DNA from: a virus
Direction: 5' to 3' (one strand)
Virus record (IMG/VR): IMGVR_UViG_3300042945_002470
Span: 1 to 54,056 of that record
DNA length: 54,056 nucleotides
Both the position numbers and the translations under genes were made by a program. Shown here piece after piece: positions 2,034 to 25,505 of the stretch; the first letter of the stretch is position 1, and each line of letters begins with the position of its first letter. The notes below the pieces were generated by a model that was not told the origin of the DNA, made no database searches, and worked only from the letters and a program-made list of their open reading frames with translations.

Positions 2034-3073
2034 TATAATGGTACTGTTCCTCTTAATATTATTTCTGATAATGCGGTAGAATCTGTTCTAACTACACTTA
2101 TACTTATCATGTCACCATCTTTCACTGAAAATGGTAATGAAACTATACCCCCATTAACTCTTATTATTGCAGCTGTGACATTTTGGATTTCCAATGTAAC
2201 AAAACTTGCCAACGTATCATTTTGGAAAGTTACAGTAGTTGGTGAACCGGGTAAAAATTGAAATATTGCCGTTATTGTTCTGTCATCTTTAGTTTCATCT
2301 TTAATTAATTTAACAACAGCTTTAGGTCTTTTAGTTTCAACCTCGTAAGATAAAATAGCTCTTTCCATACCAGGTTTCACTTCAAATTCATCTTCGTCTA
2401 AAATATAAGCTTGCATTTTAAGTTCATATGTTTGAACATAATATCTTTTCCCATCAATGTCGTCTATAGTTGATTCATCACCTATGCTTTCAAGAAGGAT
2501 TGGAAAGAAATGTCCTTTTATATTTACATATGATTGAGATGAAGCAAAAGTTGTTAATACTTTTTGATTTAACTTATTTAATTCGTTCATTCTAAAAGTG
2601 AAAAACCTAACAGTATAAGTTAAATCAACACCAACAGGTTGGGGTATCATATAAACGTCAGCACCTTTTTTATTTCCATCCCATACTGGTACGGTCATAT
2701 AAGGAAATTTAGCCCTAACAGGTATTTTAAAATCTGAAGGATTAGTACCAGGTTGAGCATCAGGTTTTCTTACAACTGAAACAAAAGGTATTTTAATATT
2801 TTTATATTTATCTGAAGATTGCCATGTTTTAGTAAATTCAGCCCATCTTTGTGCTGTTAAAAAACTAACAGGTACTTTTTCACCATCAATTACAATACCC
2901 AATTTGTCTTCAACCCATTCAACAAAACCCTTATCCAAATCAGCATGGTCAACACCTCTGGGTAAATTAGTTTTATTTTTATCCAAATAATCATTGATAT
3001 AAGCCTTTGGACCACCTTGTGGATCTACCTGTCTTATGTCTAAATCTTTTTTAAATTTTTTTGGTAATGACAT
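2033..3073 (-). CDS. Probable tail sheath stabiliser / tail completion protein (T4 gp15-like)
   Basis: 346 residues. Residues about 150-232 read VDLTYTVRFFTFRMNELNKL, then FFPILLESIGDES, then a YYVQTYELKMQAYILDEDEF segment. This order recalls the middle of T4 gp15 as I remember it: a 'YELSIFTRYEDD' helix, a 'DIPFKRDIKIVL' strand and a closing 'EWSLTFEVNGWMYP' strand. gp15 caps the tail and joins it to the neck. The location next to a gp14-like neck gene supports this. About 110 extra beta-rich residues follow the conserved part. The assignment comes from pattern and neighbourhood, not an alignment. A generic tail protein is the alternative. Confidence 0.45.
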   Translation of the reverse strand: MSLPKKFKKDLDIRQVDPQGGPKAYINDYLDKNKTNLPRGVDHADLDKGFVEWVEDKLGIVIDGEKVPVSFLTAQRWAEFTKTWQSSDKYKNIKIPFVSVVRKPDAQPGTNPSDFKIPVRAKFPYMTVPVWDGNKKGADVYMIPQPVGVDLTYTVRFFTFRMNELNKLNQKVLTTFASSQSYVNIKGHFFPILLESIGDESTIDDIDGKRYYVQTYELKMQAYILDEDEFEVKPGMERAILSYEVETKRPKAVVKLIKDETKDDRTITAIFQFLPGSPTTVTFQNDTLASFVTLEIQNVTAAIIRVNGGIVSLPFSVKDGDMISISVVRTDSTALSEIILRGTVPL

Positions 3074-5548: not shown

Positions 5549-6693
5549 TGTCACTTATAATAGAAGAAGCTGAAAAACAGAAATTATTTAGGCAAGTTAG
5601 ACACAGATTGGGTGCTCCTCTCAGAAAAATTGAGTTGGATGATGAACAAATGTGTACTTTATTAGAAATCGCCATAGAAGACCACTCTTCATTCGTTAAT
5701 GAATGGTTAATTGAAACTCAATGGTCATCATTAGATGGTATTAATTTAGATACAGCGGATTTAAGTAAAGCGTTAACAACAAGAAGTTTAAACTATGAGG
5801 ATTCTTTTACGTATGCTTACTCAAAAATTGTAGGTTTACAAGCAAGAGGTCCTTGGGAATTAAAACAAGATTATGTTGTTTTAGAAAATGGTAGACAAGT
5901 TTATCAAATACCTGCAGGCAGAGAAATAAATGAAGTTCTATACTTTCAACCACCAACAGTAGACTATGCGTTATACTCAAACTACGGTTTTGGTGATTAT
6001 GGTTTTGGTGGTGGTGTGGCTCAATTACCGTATGGTGCCGCAGGTGGTGGATTTGGTTATGGTGGGTTTTATTTGGCACCAGCATACGATATTGTATTAA
6101 GAAACGCGGATTATAATTTAAAACAAAGAATTGTAAGTTCTCAATTAACTTATTGGGTAACAGGGGGACCAAACGGAACCAAATTATTACATTTATCACC
6201 ACCCCCAGGAAGTAGATTATCTTTTGGAGGTGCTGGTTTTGCTGGAGGTCAAAAAATAAATGTAGGTGGTAGTAAAGTTTGGTATTGGTATTATGAAACA
6301 ACTTCTGATGAAGAAAGACAAAGATGTCTTAATGCTAATAAAGATATTGTTAAATTACCATCAGATGTTCCTGTAGATGTTGTTAATTATACAGAACTTA
6401 ATTCACCGTCTAAACAATGGGTTAGGGATTGGTTTACTGCTTTATGTAAAGAAACCCTAGGACGTGTTAGAGGTAAATTTGGTGGTGCTTTGGGTGTTAC
6501 AGACGCTGAAGTAACCATGGATTACGAATCCTTATTAAGTGAGGCCAAGGAAGATAGAACTACTTTAACAGAAAGATTAACAGAAAGGTTAGAAAGATTA
6601 CGTCCTGAAAATATGTTAACACGAAAGGCAACTGAGGCTGAACAATTAAATAAAGCATTACAATATAGACCTTTAGGTATTACAGTAATATAA
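5548..6693 (+). CDS. Neck / head completion protein (T4 gp13-like)
   Basis: 381 residues. The N-terminus (residues 17-50: VRHRLGAPLRKIELDDEQ, then an LEIAIEDHSSFVNEW helix) and the C-terminus (QWVRDWFTALCKETLGRVRGKF, then a DAEVTMDYESLLSEAKEDR helix) match T4 gp13 as I recall it: '[21 protein letters not shown]', 'RWVKDYATALAKELNGQI', 'DGQRLIEEARLEKEAL'. gp13 forms the neck with gp14 and seals the filled head. A Gly/Tyr/Phe-rich insert (about residues 145-175) makes it longer than T4 gp13 (about 309). Its stop overlaps the start of the next fibre gene by one base. A candidate promoter with an inverted repeat lies just upstream. Confidence 0.82.
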   Translation: MSLIIEEAEKQKLFRQVRHRLGAPLRKIELDDEQMCTLLEIAIEDHSSFVNEWLIETQWSSLDGINLDTADLSKALTTRSLNYEDSFTYAYSKIVGLQARGPWELKQDYVVLENGRQVYQIPAGREINEVLYFQPPTVDYALYSNYGFGDYGFGGGVAQLPYGAAGGGFGYGGFYLAPAYDIVLRNADYNLKQRIVSSQLTYWVTGGPNGTKLLHLSPPPGSRLSFGGAGFAGGQKINVGGSKVWYWYYETTSDEERQRCLNANKDIVKLPSDVPVDVVNYTELNSPSKQWVRDWFTALCKETLGRVRGKFGGALGVTDAEVTMDYESLLSEAKEDRTTLTERLTERLERLRPENMLTRKATEAEQLNKALQYRPLGITVI

Positions 6694-21740: not shown

Positions 21741-22367
21741 ATGGAAATGAACCCACAAATGATAGAGATACTCAAAAAGGCAAAAGCAATTGATAAGGCC
21801 GCAAGAAAATTTGATAATGGTGCGCCAAAAAAACCACAGTCTGGTGGTTTATTAGACCAAATAGGTGGTTATGATAGTACACCAATGATGAGTGAATCCA
21901 CACCATCAATAAAAAAAGATGTGAATAGTGAAAATTACAGACAAGCTGTAACCAACTCTAAATTACCACCAGCAATACAAAAGGCTATGTTGGAAAATCC
22001 GATACCACAAGCCGAATTTGTTAGTGTAGACCAAGAGGCTATTAGACAACTTAGAGAAATGGATGAACCGATTAATACATATAATGAAGAAGATGAAATA
22101 GATATGTATGAAAAACCAATTAGGAGAAATGAAACACAAAAAAATAGACCTATTAGTGAAACAGTTCAATCCAAACCAGTCGATATTAATGAAAGTTATT
22201 TACGTAAATTAATAGCTTCCGAAATATCAAAAGCCTTACCTAAAATAGTTGAGGATTATTTTGATAAACGTTTAGTTAAAGAAAACGTACAATTTAAGGC
22301 AGGTAACACTATCTTTTCTGGTACCGTAATGCCAATGCCAAAGTTAAAAGGAAAGAATAACATTTAA
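21741..22367 (+). CDS. Hypothetical acidic protein, possible head-core or scaffold type
   Basis: 208 residues. It is polar and proline-containing with little hydrophobic core: MEMNPQMIEILKKAKAIDKA, a disordered middle (GGLLDQIGGYDSTPMMSES), then an acidic stretch EEDEIDMYEKP and a C-terminal helix ESYLRKLIASEISKALPKIV ending near a FKAGNTIFSGTVMPMPK strand. It starts 2 bases after the WYL-like gene. The profile would suit a scaffold or core protein, but there is no direct evidence. Confidence 0.55.
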   Translation: MEMNPQMIEILKKAKAIDKAARKFDNGAPKKPQSGGLLDQIGGYDSTPMMSESTPSIKKDVNSENYRQAVTNSKLPPAIQKAMLENPIPQAEFVSVDQEAIRQLREMDEPINTYNEEDEIDMYEKPIRRNETQKNRPISETVQSKPVDINESYLRKLIASEISKALPKIVEDYFDKRLVKENVQFKAGNTIFSGTVMPMPKLKGKNNI

Positions 22368-22385
22368 CATTAAAAAAAAAACAAC

Positions 22386-22448
22386 ATGACAACTAAAGGA
22401 TGTGGTTGTAAAGGCAACAAAGGTACACCAAAAGGTAACAAGAAATAA
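22386..22448 (+). CDS. Possible 20-residue Cys/Lys/Gly microprotein
   Basis: ATG at 22386 to TAA at 22446-22448 gives a 20-residue peptide with CGCKGNKG and four more Lys residues near its end. It follows 18 bases after the previous stop, has an A-rich leader (AAAAAAAACAACATG) like other genes here, and directly precedes a strong terminator. CxC with Lys/Gly repeats could bind metal or nucleic acid. The small size keeps confidence low. Confidence 0.4.
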   Translation: MTTKGCGCKGNKGTPKGNKK

Positions 22449-22475
22449 TTCATGACCTTTACAGAAAGTAATTTG

Positions 22476-22505
22476 GGTTCACATTATTTGTGAACCTTTT
22501 TTTTT
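22476..22505 (+). terminator. Rho-independent terminator
   Basis: The stem GGTTCACA (22476-22483) pairs with TGTGAACC (22489-22496) around a 5-base loop and is followed by nine T residues (22497-22505). It closes the transcript of the group that begins at 19821. Confidence 0.88.
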
Positions 22506-22535
22506 ATCCTATAGTATCTTTTTTTATCTTTTAAG

Positions 22536-22543
22536 ATATTTAT
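22536..22543 (+). promoter_or_regulatory. Candidate phage promoter motif with direct repeat
   Basis: GATATTTATA begins at 22535, 14 bases before the ATG at 22558. ATTTATATGAAAA occurs twice (22538-22550 and 22552-22564), the second copy covering the start codon. This could be a binding site for the small DNA-binding protein encoded here (inference). Confidence 0.42.
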
Positions 22544-22557
22544 ATGAAAACATTTAT

Positions 22558-22701
22558 ATGAAAAATTTAAAAATAACTGATGACGCTCATAACATATTGA
22601 AAGAATATTGTGATAAAAATTTTCTAAAAATATCTGAATGGATTAGTTCTGAAATAATCAAATTGATTAAAGAAAAAAGTGATGATAAAAAAAGACAATG
22701 A
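22558..22701 (+). CDS. Small ribbon-helix-helix-like protein
   Basis: 47 residues. The pattern is a short strand (NLKITDDAH), a helix (NILKEYCDKN), a turn, and a second helix (FLKISEWISSEIIKLIKEK). This fits the ribbon-helix-helix fold of dimeric repressors such as Arc/CopG, where the first strand enters the DNA groove. It lies directly upstream of the homing endonuclease gene and overlaps it by about 20 bases. It may control that gene or its own promoter. No other domain. Too short for certainty. Confidence 0.5.
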   Translation: MKNLKITDDAHNILKEYCDKNFLKISEWISSEIIKLIKEKSDDKKRQ

Positions 22702-23461
22702 AAAATACTATAAAGAATTTTGGTTTGATAATGAAAGGTGGTATGGATATAGAGTTTGTCCTAGATGTGGTGACGATGTTTTGTGTTATGCACAAAAGCA
22801 GTGCCTTTTATTGAGGAATATTAAAAATAAAACCAAAAAGGGGTGTTTATGTAGAAAATGTTATTCTGATGTATATTCAGGTAAGGGTAACAATTTCTAT
22901 GGTAGAAAACACAGTGAAGAAACTAAGAAAAATATTTCAAATAGTAGGAAAGGTAAATATAACGGTGATATACACCACACAAAAAAGGATGAATATAAGG
23001 AATTATCGAAGATAATAATGCAACGTAATTGGAGTGATGGTATATTAAACAGAGAAGAAATATCTGAGATGATGAAGACTAATATAAAATTAGGTAAATT
23101 AAATACACAAAATAAATCTAAAAAAGAAAATGAGATTAAATATTTTTTAAATTCTTTAGGTCACGAGGTCACACAGTACTTTAGGGTTGATACCAAAATA
23201 TGTGACTTTTACTTACCCAAACTTAATTTGATTATAGAATATTTTGGTGATTATTGGCATTGCAATCCTATTAAATATAATGAAAACTACTTCAACCACA
23301 AAAAGGGTTTAAAGGCTAAAGAATTATGGGAGCAAGATAGTAATAGACTTGAGTTAATAAAGAACTATGGTTATAATTTAGAAGTTGTATGGGAAACTGA
23401 GTTGAAATACAACAATAACAAATTATTAGAAATAATTAAAAAATATGACAAACGAGATTAA
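22682..23461 (+). CDS. Homing endonuclease: zinc ribbon, NUMOD3, Vsr/PD-(D/E)XK-like nuclease
   Basis: 259 residues from the ATG at 22682 (a GTG lies one codon earlier). The N-terminus has CPRCGDD and CLCRKC, a likely zinc ribbon. Residues about 75-97 (NFYGRKHSEETKKNISNSRK) are a NUMOD3 DNA-binding motif, a hallmark of phage homing endonucleases. The C-terminus (KKENEIKYFLNSLGHEV, then ICDFYLPKLNLIIEYFGDYW, HCNP, and NRLELIKNYGYNLEVVWE) is a Vsr-like nuclease core with acidic residues in place. It is free-standing, not inside an intron. Its last 17 bases overlap the start of the glycosyltransferase gene whose 5' end is disrupted 68 bases later. Confidence 0.85.
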   Translation: MIKKDNEKYYKEFWFDNERWYGYRVCPRCGDDVLCYAQKQCLLLRNIKNKTKKGCLCRKCYSDVYSGKGNNFYGRKHSEETKKNISNSRKGKYNGDIHHTKKDEYKELSKIIMQRNWSDGILNREEISEMMKTNIKLGKLNTQNKSKKENEIKYFLNSLGHEVTQYFRVDTKICDFYLPKLNLIIEYFGDYWHCNPIKYNENYFNHKKGLKAKELWEQDSNRLELIKNYGYNLEVVWETELKYNNNKLLEIIKKYDKRD

Positions 23462-24805
23462 TAACCCCGTGAATGGTCGTGAGAGGATCAACGTACTAGT
23501 TGTCCCTAGTGACCGTTCTGGGGTTAGCTGAGCAAATTTAGATCAGTTGACCCACATTTAAAATTACAAGAATTATTCCCTAAAGATTTTTTCGTTGATA
23601 TTGTAACTGCAGGTACAGATGGTATTGATTGGAATGATGAGAATTATCTTAAACAATTTAATATAATACATTTCCATAGAACAATTAATGATGTGGTTGA
23701 TGGTAGGTTACAACCTGTTTATGGTGAAAAGGTTAAAAATATTTTTGATAGATTAAAAAAATATGGTGTTATAACCATAATGGATTTAGATGATTATTGG
23801 ATGCCAGGTCCAGAACACCCAGTACATGTTATGTTAAAACAAATGAAAATGGATGAATTAATAAAATCCAATTTCGCCGTAGTGGATTATGTTACAACCA
23901 CAACATCAATATTTGCTGAAGAAATTAGAAAATATAATAAAAATGTTGTTGTTTTACCAAACGCTATAGACCCTTCGGAACCACAATTTCAAAAGAAAGA
24001 AATTAAATCTGATAAAAAAGTTAGGTTTGGTTGGTTAGGTGGTTCTTCTCATTTACATGATTTAGAAATTCTTAGGCAAGGTTTAAATGTTTGGACAAGT
24101 AGTGAAGAGGGTAAAAATTCACAATTAGTTTTATGTGGTTTTGATTTAAGGGGTAATGTTACCGAAACAAACCCAAACACAGGTGAACAAAAAACAAGAA
24201 AAATTTTACCACATGAAAGTGTATGGTGTCGTTATGAGGAAATTTTCACTAACCATTATAATTCATTATCCAATGATTATAAAAAACATTTATTAAAATA
24301 TAATCAAGATGAAGATAATGATTATAAAGATAATAATGAAACTTATAGAAGAGTTTGGACTAAACCTATTACCACATACGCATCAAATTATAACATGTTT
24401 GATGTGTCTTTGGCTCCGTTAAAAGAAACTTTATTTAATAAAGTAAAATCACAATTAAAAGTTATTGAGGCTGGTTTCCACAAAAAAGCTTTAATAGCTC
24501 AAAATTTTGGTCCTTATACAATTGACTTGGTTAATGTAATTGAATATGGTGGGAAAATTAATGAAAATGGAAACGCAATTTTGATTGATTCTAATAAAAA
24601 CCATAAAGATTGGTTAAAAGCTGTTAAATTCTTATATAATAACCCACAAATTGTTGATAAAATGGGGGAAAATCTTTATAATACAGTTGTAAAAAAATAC
24701 CATATTGATGTTGTCACGAAACAAAGAGCAGAATTCTATTCTTCTATTGTTAATGGTAACAAAAAAGAAGTTAAACAATTAGTAAAAGAAACAAATGAAA
24801 TTTAA
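23445..24805 (+). CDS. GT-B glycosyltransferase with frame break at 23529
   Basis: The N-terminus (ATG at 23445) reads INVLVVPSDRSGVS and stops at TGA 23529-23531. The continuation in another frame starts at 23528 and reads KFRSVDPHLKLQEL, then FFVDIVTAG, LDDYWMPGPEHP, VVVLPNAID, FGWLGGSSHLHDL and SLAPLKETLFNKVKSQLKVIEAG. Joined, GVSKFRSVDPH is a natural N-terminus of a GT4-like enzyme of about 450 residues. Five extra bases separate the parts. Without recoding only a protein from an internal start (GTG at 23693 is one option) could be made, lacking the N-terminal Rossmann strand. The first 70 bases are much richer in GC than the rest. Substrate unknown. Confidence 0.75.
23475..23533 (+). other. 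Possible recoding (hop) element or 5-nt insertion
   Basis: The sequence at the break is GTT AGC TGA GC AAA TTT. The last sense codon AGC (23526-23528) is followed by TGA and repeated as AGC at 23531-23533, in the frame of the downstream part. Moving from the first AGC to the second skips five bases and gives GVSKFRS. Upstream, 23475-23514 can fold: GGTCGT/GTGACC outside, then GGA-CAAC/GTTG-TCC with one bulged T and a 6-base loop. A take-off codon before a stop, a matching landing codon and a 5' hairpin are features of T4 gene 60 bypassing. A plain insertion is equally consistent with the sequence. Confidence 0.35.
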
Positions 24806-25505
24806 CATTGAAAAACTATTATTCTTTGATGTAGAAACTGTATCTAATTATCGTAATCTTTATGATATGACTGATATTGAATTGGATATTTGGATGAGAT
24901 ATTATGACACATTTAGGAAAAAAGTTACAGATGAAACTAAATTAGAGGGGTTAAAAGAAGGTTCAAAAGAATATTACAGTGAAGTTTATAGACAAACAGC
25001 GGCATTTTTCCCAGAATTTGGAAGGGTTGCCTGTGTGTCCATGGCTTTTGTGAATAAAGGTAAAATTAAATTGGAATCTTACAGTGGTAAGGATGAGTTG
25101 GATATATTAAAAAATATTAGAAATGTATTTGATAAAATTGATAGGTTAGATTTTTCACTTTGTGGTCATAGTGTTAAAATTTTTGACATACCCTTTTTAG
25201 GTAAAAGATACTTTATAAATGGATTAAAACCACCTACTATTTTCCCTAATCACGATACTAAACCTTGGGAGGTGAAAGTTTTAGATACTAAAGATGTTTG
25301 GCAATTCGGTAATAATTGGTCGTTAGGTTCTTTAGATTTAATATGTTCGGTTATGGACATAAAATCCCCAAAAACTGGTAATGTTAAAGGTGATAATGTA
25401 ACACATAATTATTGGCTTGATAACCACGAAGAAATAAAGGAATATTGTGAAAGAGATGTTAGGTCTTTGGTAGATATTATTACAAAATTAAATAATTTAG
25501 AATAA
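24795..25505 (+). CDS. DnaQ-like 3'-5' exonuclease (PolB-type DEDDy)
   Basis: 236 residues. ExoI is LLFFDVETVS (Asp12, Glu14), ExoII is FSLCGHSVKIFDIPFLG and ExoIII is EYCERDVRSLVD, with Tyr and Asp in the DEDDy spacing. An N-terminal insert (SEVYRQTAAFFPEFGRVAC) is typical of 'predicted 3'-5' exonuclease related to the PolB exonuclease domain'. It is separate from the exonuclease domain of the polymerase at 16920 and may serve repair or recombination. It overlaps the preceding gene by 11 bases and the dUTPase gene by 1 base. Confidence 0.88.
   Translation: MKFNIEKLLFFDVETVSNYRNLYDMTDIELDIWMRYYDTFRKKVTDETKLEGLKEGSKEYYSEVYRQTAAFFPEFGRVACVSMAFVNKGKIKLESYSGKDELDILKNIRNVFDKIDRLDFSLCGHSVKIFDIPFLGKRYFINGLKPPTIFPNHDTKPWEVKVLDTKDVWQFGNNWSLGSLDLICSVMDIKSPKTGNVKGDNVTHNYWLDNHEEIKEYCERDVRSLVDIITKLNNLE

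Follow-up and report, generated by a model that had tools for sequence, protein, structure and literature searches.

A putative minimal translational-bypass element associated with homing endonucleases in a phage glycosyltransferase gene

A glycosyltransferase (GT) gene of a 54-kb viral contig is split close to its 5′ end by a stop codon lying between two identical serine codons, directly downstream of a homing endonuclease gene. It is quite probable that a mobile homing-endonuclease cassette has been inserted at the 5′ end of the gene, bringing with it a minimal translational-bypass element. A similarly good probability is assigned to the native enzyme being made by a hop of the ribosome between the matched codons. 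The hop, the driving role of the hairpin and the protection from cutting are inferences, and no expression data support them directly.

The window, that is, the whole analysed stretch of 54,056 nucleotides, contains the split site on its plus strand. The first open reading frame (GT ORF1, 23445-23531) runs from the ATG at 23445 to the stop, comprises 28 codons and overlaps the end of the endonuclease frame. Its translation ends with MTNEINNPVNGRERINVLVVPSDRSGVS, followed by TGA (23529-23531). The N-terminal extension of ORF1 carries the 5′ arm of a stem-loop, and the uninterrupted relatives have no such extension. An earlier reading, made from the sequence only, had noticed a foldable segment at this place; the structure is real, but its extent had been given as 40 nt (23475-23514), whereas the actual stem-loop covers 65 nt (23462-23526), with the first base of the take-off codon as the end of its 3′ arm. 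The take-off codon, as read from the sequence, is AGC for Ser (23526-23528) and is directly followed by the stop. The landing codon, also AGC (23531-23533), shares the last base of the stop and lies in another frame than ORF1, so that the bypassed gap is merely TG (23529-23530). GT ORF2 (23531-24805) encodes the GT-B glycosyltransferase body of 424 aa counted from the landing codon, begins with SKFRSVDPH and matches the glycosyltransferase family PHROG 7162 (E 7.5e-40). The stop of the GT frame, the repeated AGC and the position of its second copy in the frame of the body, all pointed out earlier, are correct in coordinates and codons. The same gene is uninterrupted in four contigs at 96% protein identity, where the junction reads GVS-KFRSVDPH with one Ser codon; a 5-nt hop would therefore give exactly the native length. 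The continuation GVSKFRSVDPH, formerly judged only to be natural, is identical to that of these relatives. No tRNA genes were found in the window.

The homing endonuclease frame (22682-23461, plus strand) starts at ATG 22682 or GTG 22679 and overlaps the GT start. It contains CxxC cysteine pairs, a NUMOD3 motif (Pfam, E 5e-6) and a C-terminal PD-(D/E)XK/Vsr-like nuclease region (KICDFYLPKLNLIIEYFGDYWHCNP), and it matches PHROG families of homing/HNH endonucleases. Among 14 homologues, NUMOD3 is present in 13 and REase_MTES_1575 in 9, and the acidic and His residues of the nuclease core (D175, E186, D190 and H193 in the numbering of A8) are invariant. By motif and nuclease core, the criteria for a NUMOD3/PD-(D/E)XK-type homing endonuclease are met, cleavage itself being inferred. 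A 47-aa frame at 22558-22701 (plus strand; MKNLKITDDAHNILKEYCDKNF...) lies just upstream of the endonuclease start and overlaps it. To the eye, its predicted product resembles a small ribbon-helix-helix DNA-binding protein; a Pfam match was not obtained for it. A tiny frame rich in Cys, Gly and Lys (MTTKGCGCKGNKGTPKGNKK), visible by eye at 22386-22439 (plus strand), lies ahead of the cassette and after the preceding gene.

The recurrence of this arrangement was established with a degenerate pattern for PSDRTGV-AGY-TGA, followed by three protein-profile scans and an endonuclease scan. Altogether, 44 distinct GT genes are interrupted at the same codon, so that 43 further elements accompany that of the window. 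A second case was found in L012/L013, a GT relative at 51% identity recovered from two metagenomes, with the arrangement AGC-TGAAA-AGT and its own hairpin. Because the final pattern demanded a stop after the take-off codon, its presence in all 44 genes reflects how they were selected and is no finding in itself; the selection made no use of the codon match, the hairpin or the landing frame. For L094, L046, L048, L123 and others the status was assigned by eye, the automated classifier being insufficient, and the pattern matches in L036 and L040 proved to be unrelated genes. The take-off codons are GGT (17), GGC (16), AGC (8) and AGT (3), and the stops are TGA (27), TAA (16) and TAG (1). The gaps measure 2 nt (4 elements), 3 (26), 4 (3), 5 (4), 6 (1), 8 (1), 9 (2) or 10 nt (3), which corresponds to hops of +5 to +13 and to the use of all three frames, with 29 of the 44 elements in frame and 15 in the two other frames. 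In the 44 genes the hop would restore the native protein length as judged from uninterrupted relatives. Named phage genomes gave no nucleotide match, only distant proteins, and the two distant GT relatives found in cellular genomes are both uninterrupted.

These counts bear on whether the split is a sequencing or assembly error. The copy in the window comes from a single contig, with no raw reads behind it, which leaves room for such an error in this one case. The 43 further distinct elements share the same design, and several of them came up independently in two or three metagenomes; an error, raised as a rival from the beginning, is therefore excluded in practice and refuted for the class, and its probability is negligible.

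The take-off and landing codons are matched far beyond expectation. Their first two bases are shared in 43 of 44 elements (AGN/AGN or GGN/GGN), compared with a mean of 18.9 and a maximum of 30 when landing codons were sampled 20,000 times from that position of 124 uninterrupted genes. When only distinct combinations of take-off, gap and landing are counted, 24 of 25 match (expected 8.8, maximum 16). The relatedness of the elements inflates these statistics; yet the matches hold for AGN as well as GGN and in all three frames. The landing codon is readable by the tRNA of the take-off codon in 35 of 44 elements. Eight landings are GGA or AGA, with a third-base mismatch for a G34 tRNA, and the one real misfit is L057 (AGT to GGC), which would need a U36-G wobble at position 1; being imperfect for tRNA re-pairing, these landings speak against the hop. 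A Ser take-off is invariably encoded by AGY; at that site the uninterrupted genes have TCN (39) more often than AGY (15). L214 lands on GGA, and its near-identical uninterrupted relative L213 has GGA there too, from which it follows that the landing codon of L214 is the recipient's own; judging from this pair, a landing codon can be a codon that the recipient gene already possessed. In the window phage AGC is the rarest Ser codon (7/615), and GGC accounts for 15/681 Gly codons. It has been observed that C-ending take-off codons (AGC, GGC) are among the rarest of the phage and that Gly landings are mostly GGT; the rarity of the take-off codon may add to the pause or serve the stem.

Ordinary recoding, by a fixed -1 or +1 frameshift or by stop-codon readthrough, has to be considered here, given that a rare take-off codon followed by a stop is a known shifty context and that 29 of the 44 elements are in frame. 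Readthrough of these 29 would also give a protein, one or more residues longer, which is a point against the hop. However, gaps of 2, 4, 5, 8 and 10 nt demand both shifted frames, the stop varies (TGA, TAA, TAG), and ordinary recoding predicts no matching codon exactly where native coding resumes. It is regarded as very improbable.

The matched codons are accompanied by a hairpin. That of the window has a minimum free energy (MFE) of -35.4 kcal/mol over an 81-nt folding window, with a z score of -6.4 relative to dinucleotide shuffles and -7.2 relative to 200 synonymous recodings of the same peptide. An upstream hairpin is present in all 44 interrupted genes. In 22 of them the mean MFE over 82-nt folding windows is -30.1 kcal/mol (z -4.9), whereas the hairpin is absent in 124 uninterrupted genes (82-nt folding windows, mean MFE -9.8, z -0.15). 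Relative to synonymous recodings, z scores range from -3.2 to -7.3. The lowest MFE among the uninterrupted genes listed, -21.4, belongs to L017. The 5′ end of this gene (2917-3000) is almost identical to that of the interrupted L313, but L017 has neither the stop nor the gap, and C replaces one G of the stem (MFE -20.0 vs -31.3 in L313). By this comparison, L017 is likely a lineage that lost the element and whose hairpin is decaying.

The stem pairs also covary; covariation was counted on two separate alignments because MAFFT placed the subgroup of the window out of register with the other elements. In the 16-element alignment, 9 pairs have double-sided changes, amounting to 27 cells against 9.9 in shuffled data, a value reached by none of 500 shuffles; sliding the partners by one base roughly halves the stem pairing. 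In the 3′ arm the bases that vary (-1, -4 and -7) fall on third codon positions. A covariance model from which the subgroup of the window had been excluded still matched the window at E 3.7e-12, and its best match was the GT site in each of the 22 other interrupted records. Over 31 phage records the strong matches were at the GT only, and copies of the element in other genes were rejected on this basis. The covarying hairpin is thus tied to the interruption, while stimulation of the hop by it is only inferred. No conserved 3′ structure follows the landing codon (80 nt downstream, z 0.38 vs 0.18 in uninterrupted genes), no take-off stem-loop like that of gene 60 is conserved in the elements, and a KKYK nascent-peptide signal is absent from the ORF1 peptides.

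Removal of the extra bases at the RNA level, by a mini-intron or by editing, would also restore the native length precisely, and in a gene invaded by homing elements this deserves mention. Nevertheless, the region 22300-24900 has no Rfam match, even at E 1, the interruptions of 2-10 nt are below the size of known self-splicing introns, and variable gaps between matched codons are a signature of tRNA re-pairing; the probability of such removal is accordingly very slight. A group I or group II intron or an intein at the interruption was likewise rejected, on the lack of an Rfam match, on an interruption of 5 nt and on the location of the relatives' inteins elsewhere in the GT. Inteins do occur at further places of the same GT in L024, L027, L028, L029, L031 and L034, which makes the gene a hot spot for homing elements. 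Separately, in L012 an IMPDH/GuaB-like protein (5896-6669) is apparently interrupted by an intein (GGGCFVGETKVITKDGEKDIKD), as judged by eye.

After the landing codon the bodies run at full length, about 378-422 aa (424 in the window) and longer with inteins, wherever the record allows. Between interrupted genes dN is well below dS, with dN/dS values of 0.093/0.929 for L103/L207 and 0.100/1.072 for L079/L102 (a ratio of about 0.1). The interrupted L012 compared with the uninterrupted L010 gives 0.008/0.261. Because the element moves, the two members of a pair need not descend from a common interrupted ancestor. Residue constraint is present on both sides of the break. From these substitution patterns, the gene downstream of the break is under purifying selection. 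A second GT copy was found in none of 23 records, which may be incomplete, and the GT of the window is single copy. In the predicted structure of an uninterrupted relative (mean pLDDT 82.6), which is a GT-B fold closest to GlgM, BshA, PglA and MshA, strand 1 spans residues 4-9 and helix 1 residues 15-31. According to this model the break at residue 17 cuts strand 1 off from the remainder of the fold, and since strand 1 is thereby separated from helix 1, ORF2 is not expected to function by itself.

Two explanations without a hop are affected by these data. The first is that the insertion killed the gene and that a pseudogene was left behind by the endonuclease, as the sequence-only reading had allowed for a 5-base insertion. 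A stop near the 5′ end and the lack of expression data are compatible with it. However, the bodies remain open at full length, dN/dS is about 0.1 in L103/L207 and L079/L102, and the hairpin and matched codons are kept in genes that have lost the endonuclease or retain only a decayed copy (L012, L029, L032, L185, L103), which makes this explanation distinctly unlikely. The second is that two products are made, ORF1 terminating and the body starting anew by reinitiation or at an internal start. Termination-reinitiation is common in phage operons, and in the AGC and GGC elements a CTG overlaps the stop (CTGA). On the other hand, the GGT/TAA elements have no CTG, the first in-frame ATG, GTG or TTG lies 5 to 214 codons downstream of the landing at no conserved place, ORF2 would be without strand 1, and the matched landing codon and the hairpin would be left without a role; separate products are considered unlikely, if slightly less so than a pseudogene. 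Overall, a dead gene and a separately started body are both disfavoured by the full-length bodies, the dN/dS values, the residue constraint, the single copy, the split fold and the unconserved starts. The production of one enzyme by a matched-codon hop remains the preferred interpretation.

The distribution of the element follows a pattern of mobility. In a tree built from the N-terminal regions of 149 GTs, the 23 interrupted genes are scattered and the interrupted state requires at least 20 changes. Interrupted genes have uninterrupted sisters (window/L002, L028/L130, L012/L010, L063/L068, L207/L205 and L214/L213), and such pairs differ by the endonuclease, the hairpin and the gap, identity returning at or near the landing codon. 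L028 and L130, for example, are 97% and 95% identical in DNA on the two sides; what sets them apart is the endonuclease, the gap and the recoding of the hairpin region, and identity returns at the landing AGC. By sequence, the element of the window groups with L079, L244 and L249, a subgroup from another GT clade, a placement consistent with transfer between GT clades.

Endonuclease frames 40-52% identical to that of the window precede many other interrupted GT genes at the same place, and a scan for the family leads almost always to this GT gene. Only fragments remain in L212, L103/L242, L063, L177 and L102, and no homologue was found near the interrupted GT in L012, L029, L032 and L185. Taken together, comparison of the genes makes it highly probable that the element is part of an endonuclease-driven mobile cassette. 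The proposal that a homing endonuclease and a minimal bypass cassette travel together is supported by the 44 genes, the codon match in 43 of them, the covarying hairpin, the selection and the endonuclease that neighbours many of them, whole or decayed. Where the endonuclease is present and the GT uninterrupted, V is replaced by T or A right before PSD in 9 of the 18 loci listed, compared with 1 of 122 endonuclease-free GT genes. This replacement is a possible alternative route to an altered target and an escape from cutting. Loci with an endonuclease, an uninterrupted GT and T or A in place of V, L or I before PSD include L101, L221, L267, L078, L324, L326, L328-L330 and L344. A rule that every endonuclease-bearing uninterrupted GT carries V to T/A before PSD was rejected: it is true for the closest endonucleases but fails in roughly half of the wider set.

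A scheme for the hop can be inferred from the analogy to gene 60 of phage T4. There, forward sliding is promoted when a 5′ stem-loop folds again behind the ribosome, and the tRNA from the take-off codon also pairs with the landing codon (PMC5009743, PMC11194080). After translation of the 28 codons, the ribosome would halt with TGA in the A site and the peptidyl-tRNA on AGC. The hairpin, unfolded within the ribosome during the pause, would re-form behind it, pull the mRNA forward and loosen the codon-anticodon pairing; by inference, the geometry is compatible with a pull by a few bases. The tRNA-Ser would then slide a few bases to the following AGY and pair again; in other phages tRNA-Gly would do so on GGN. 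Translation would resume in the frame set by the landing codon. In this way the presumed target of the endonuclease, the codons for PSDRTGV-S/G, would be split and recoded while the full-length enzyme is still made. The hop remains inferred, as there are no proteomic, ribosome-profiling or reporter data.

The GT element shares with T4 gene 60 and mobA a homing endonuclease adjoining a gene with an untranslated gap (PMC5009743, PMC3014915, PMC11194080), a stop that immediately follows the take-off codon, a landing codon that matches it, a 5′ stem-loop and an insertion absent from close relatives. The differences are considerable. The gap is 2-10 nt instead of about 50 nt between Gly GGA codons, and take-off occurs on AGY or GGY, thus on Ser as well as Gly. 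The GT elements have one stem-loop abutting the take-off codon, unlike gene 60, and neither a conserved take-off or 3′ stem-loop nor KKYK. The nuclease is of the NUMOD3/PD-(D/E)XK type in place of the HNH mobA, a single PHROG annotation being the only HNH likeness, and the recipient is a glycosyltransferase with dozens of instances in place of a topoisomerase. In its predicted operation the GT element works like the T4 byp cassette and, by the tests made, is not a member of that lineage. A short bypass of this kind would need neither a 50-nt gap nor a take-off hairpin like that of gene 60.

Among other systems, synthetic stop-hops of a few bases over a stop flanked by matched codons are known in E. 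coli (PMC5009743); they share the matched codons and the short hop, whereas the GT elements, with their dedicated hairpin, are natural and conserved. The Byp elements of Magnusiomyces mitochondria are also inserts neutralised by bypass, with take-off and landing codons not always perfectly matched, but they act on yeast mitochondrial ribosomes in many genes and are reported to be context independent (PMC5009743), whereas the GT elements occur in a single gene, have a conserved hairpin and lie beside a nuclease. Free-standing phage homing endonucleases of the NUMOD3 or PD-(D/E)XK (Vsr-like) type have the same domain make-up and invade conserved genes; those associated with the GT differ in travelling with a recoding element inside the target frame or with altered target codons. 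The possible mycobacteriophage bypass in the Corndog tape measure gene (PMC4351075) has a different arrangement and was set aside.

Efficient bypassing has been called apparently unique to T4 gene 60 (PMC3014915), no natural in-frame stop hopping was known according to a review, and shorter matched-codon counterparts have long been presumed (PMC5009743). With at least 44 phage genes carrying versions of it, bypass recoding looks widespread. It is likely, though somewhat less firmly held than the reading of the window itself, that mobile minimal bypass elements are widespread, in which one 5′ hairpin and a stop suffice for a hop over 2-10 nt to the recipient's own matching codon, that endonucleases interrupt conserved coding sequence in this manner without introns or inteins, and that these are the first natural stop-hops, in and out of frame. 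Knowledge of bypassing previously rested mainly on T4 gene 60, and 44 natural variants in gaps, stops, codons and stems are now available. This comparative set can serve to find the minimal signal, to test the pull of the 5′ hairpin and to measure the choice of landing site by codon matching. Gene callers will truncate genes interrupted in this way. If the inferred hop takes place, the elements would add to introns and inteins a third means by which a homing endonuclease can reside in a coding region without destroying the gene.
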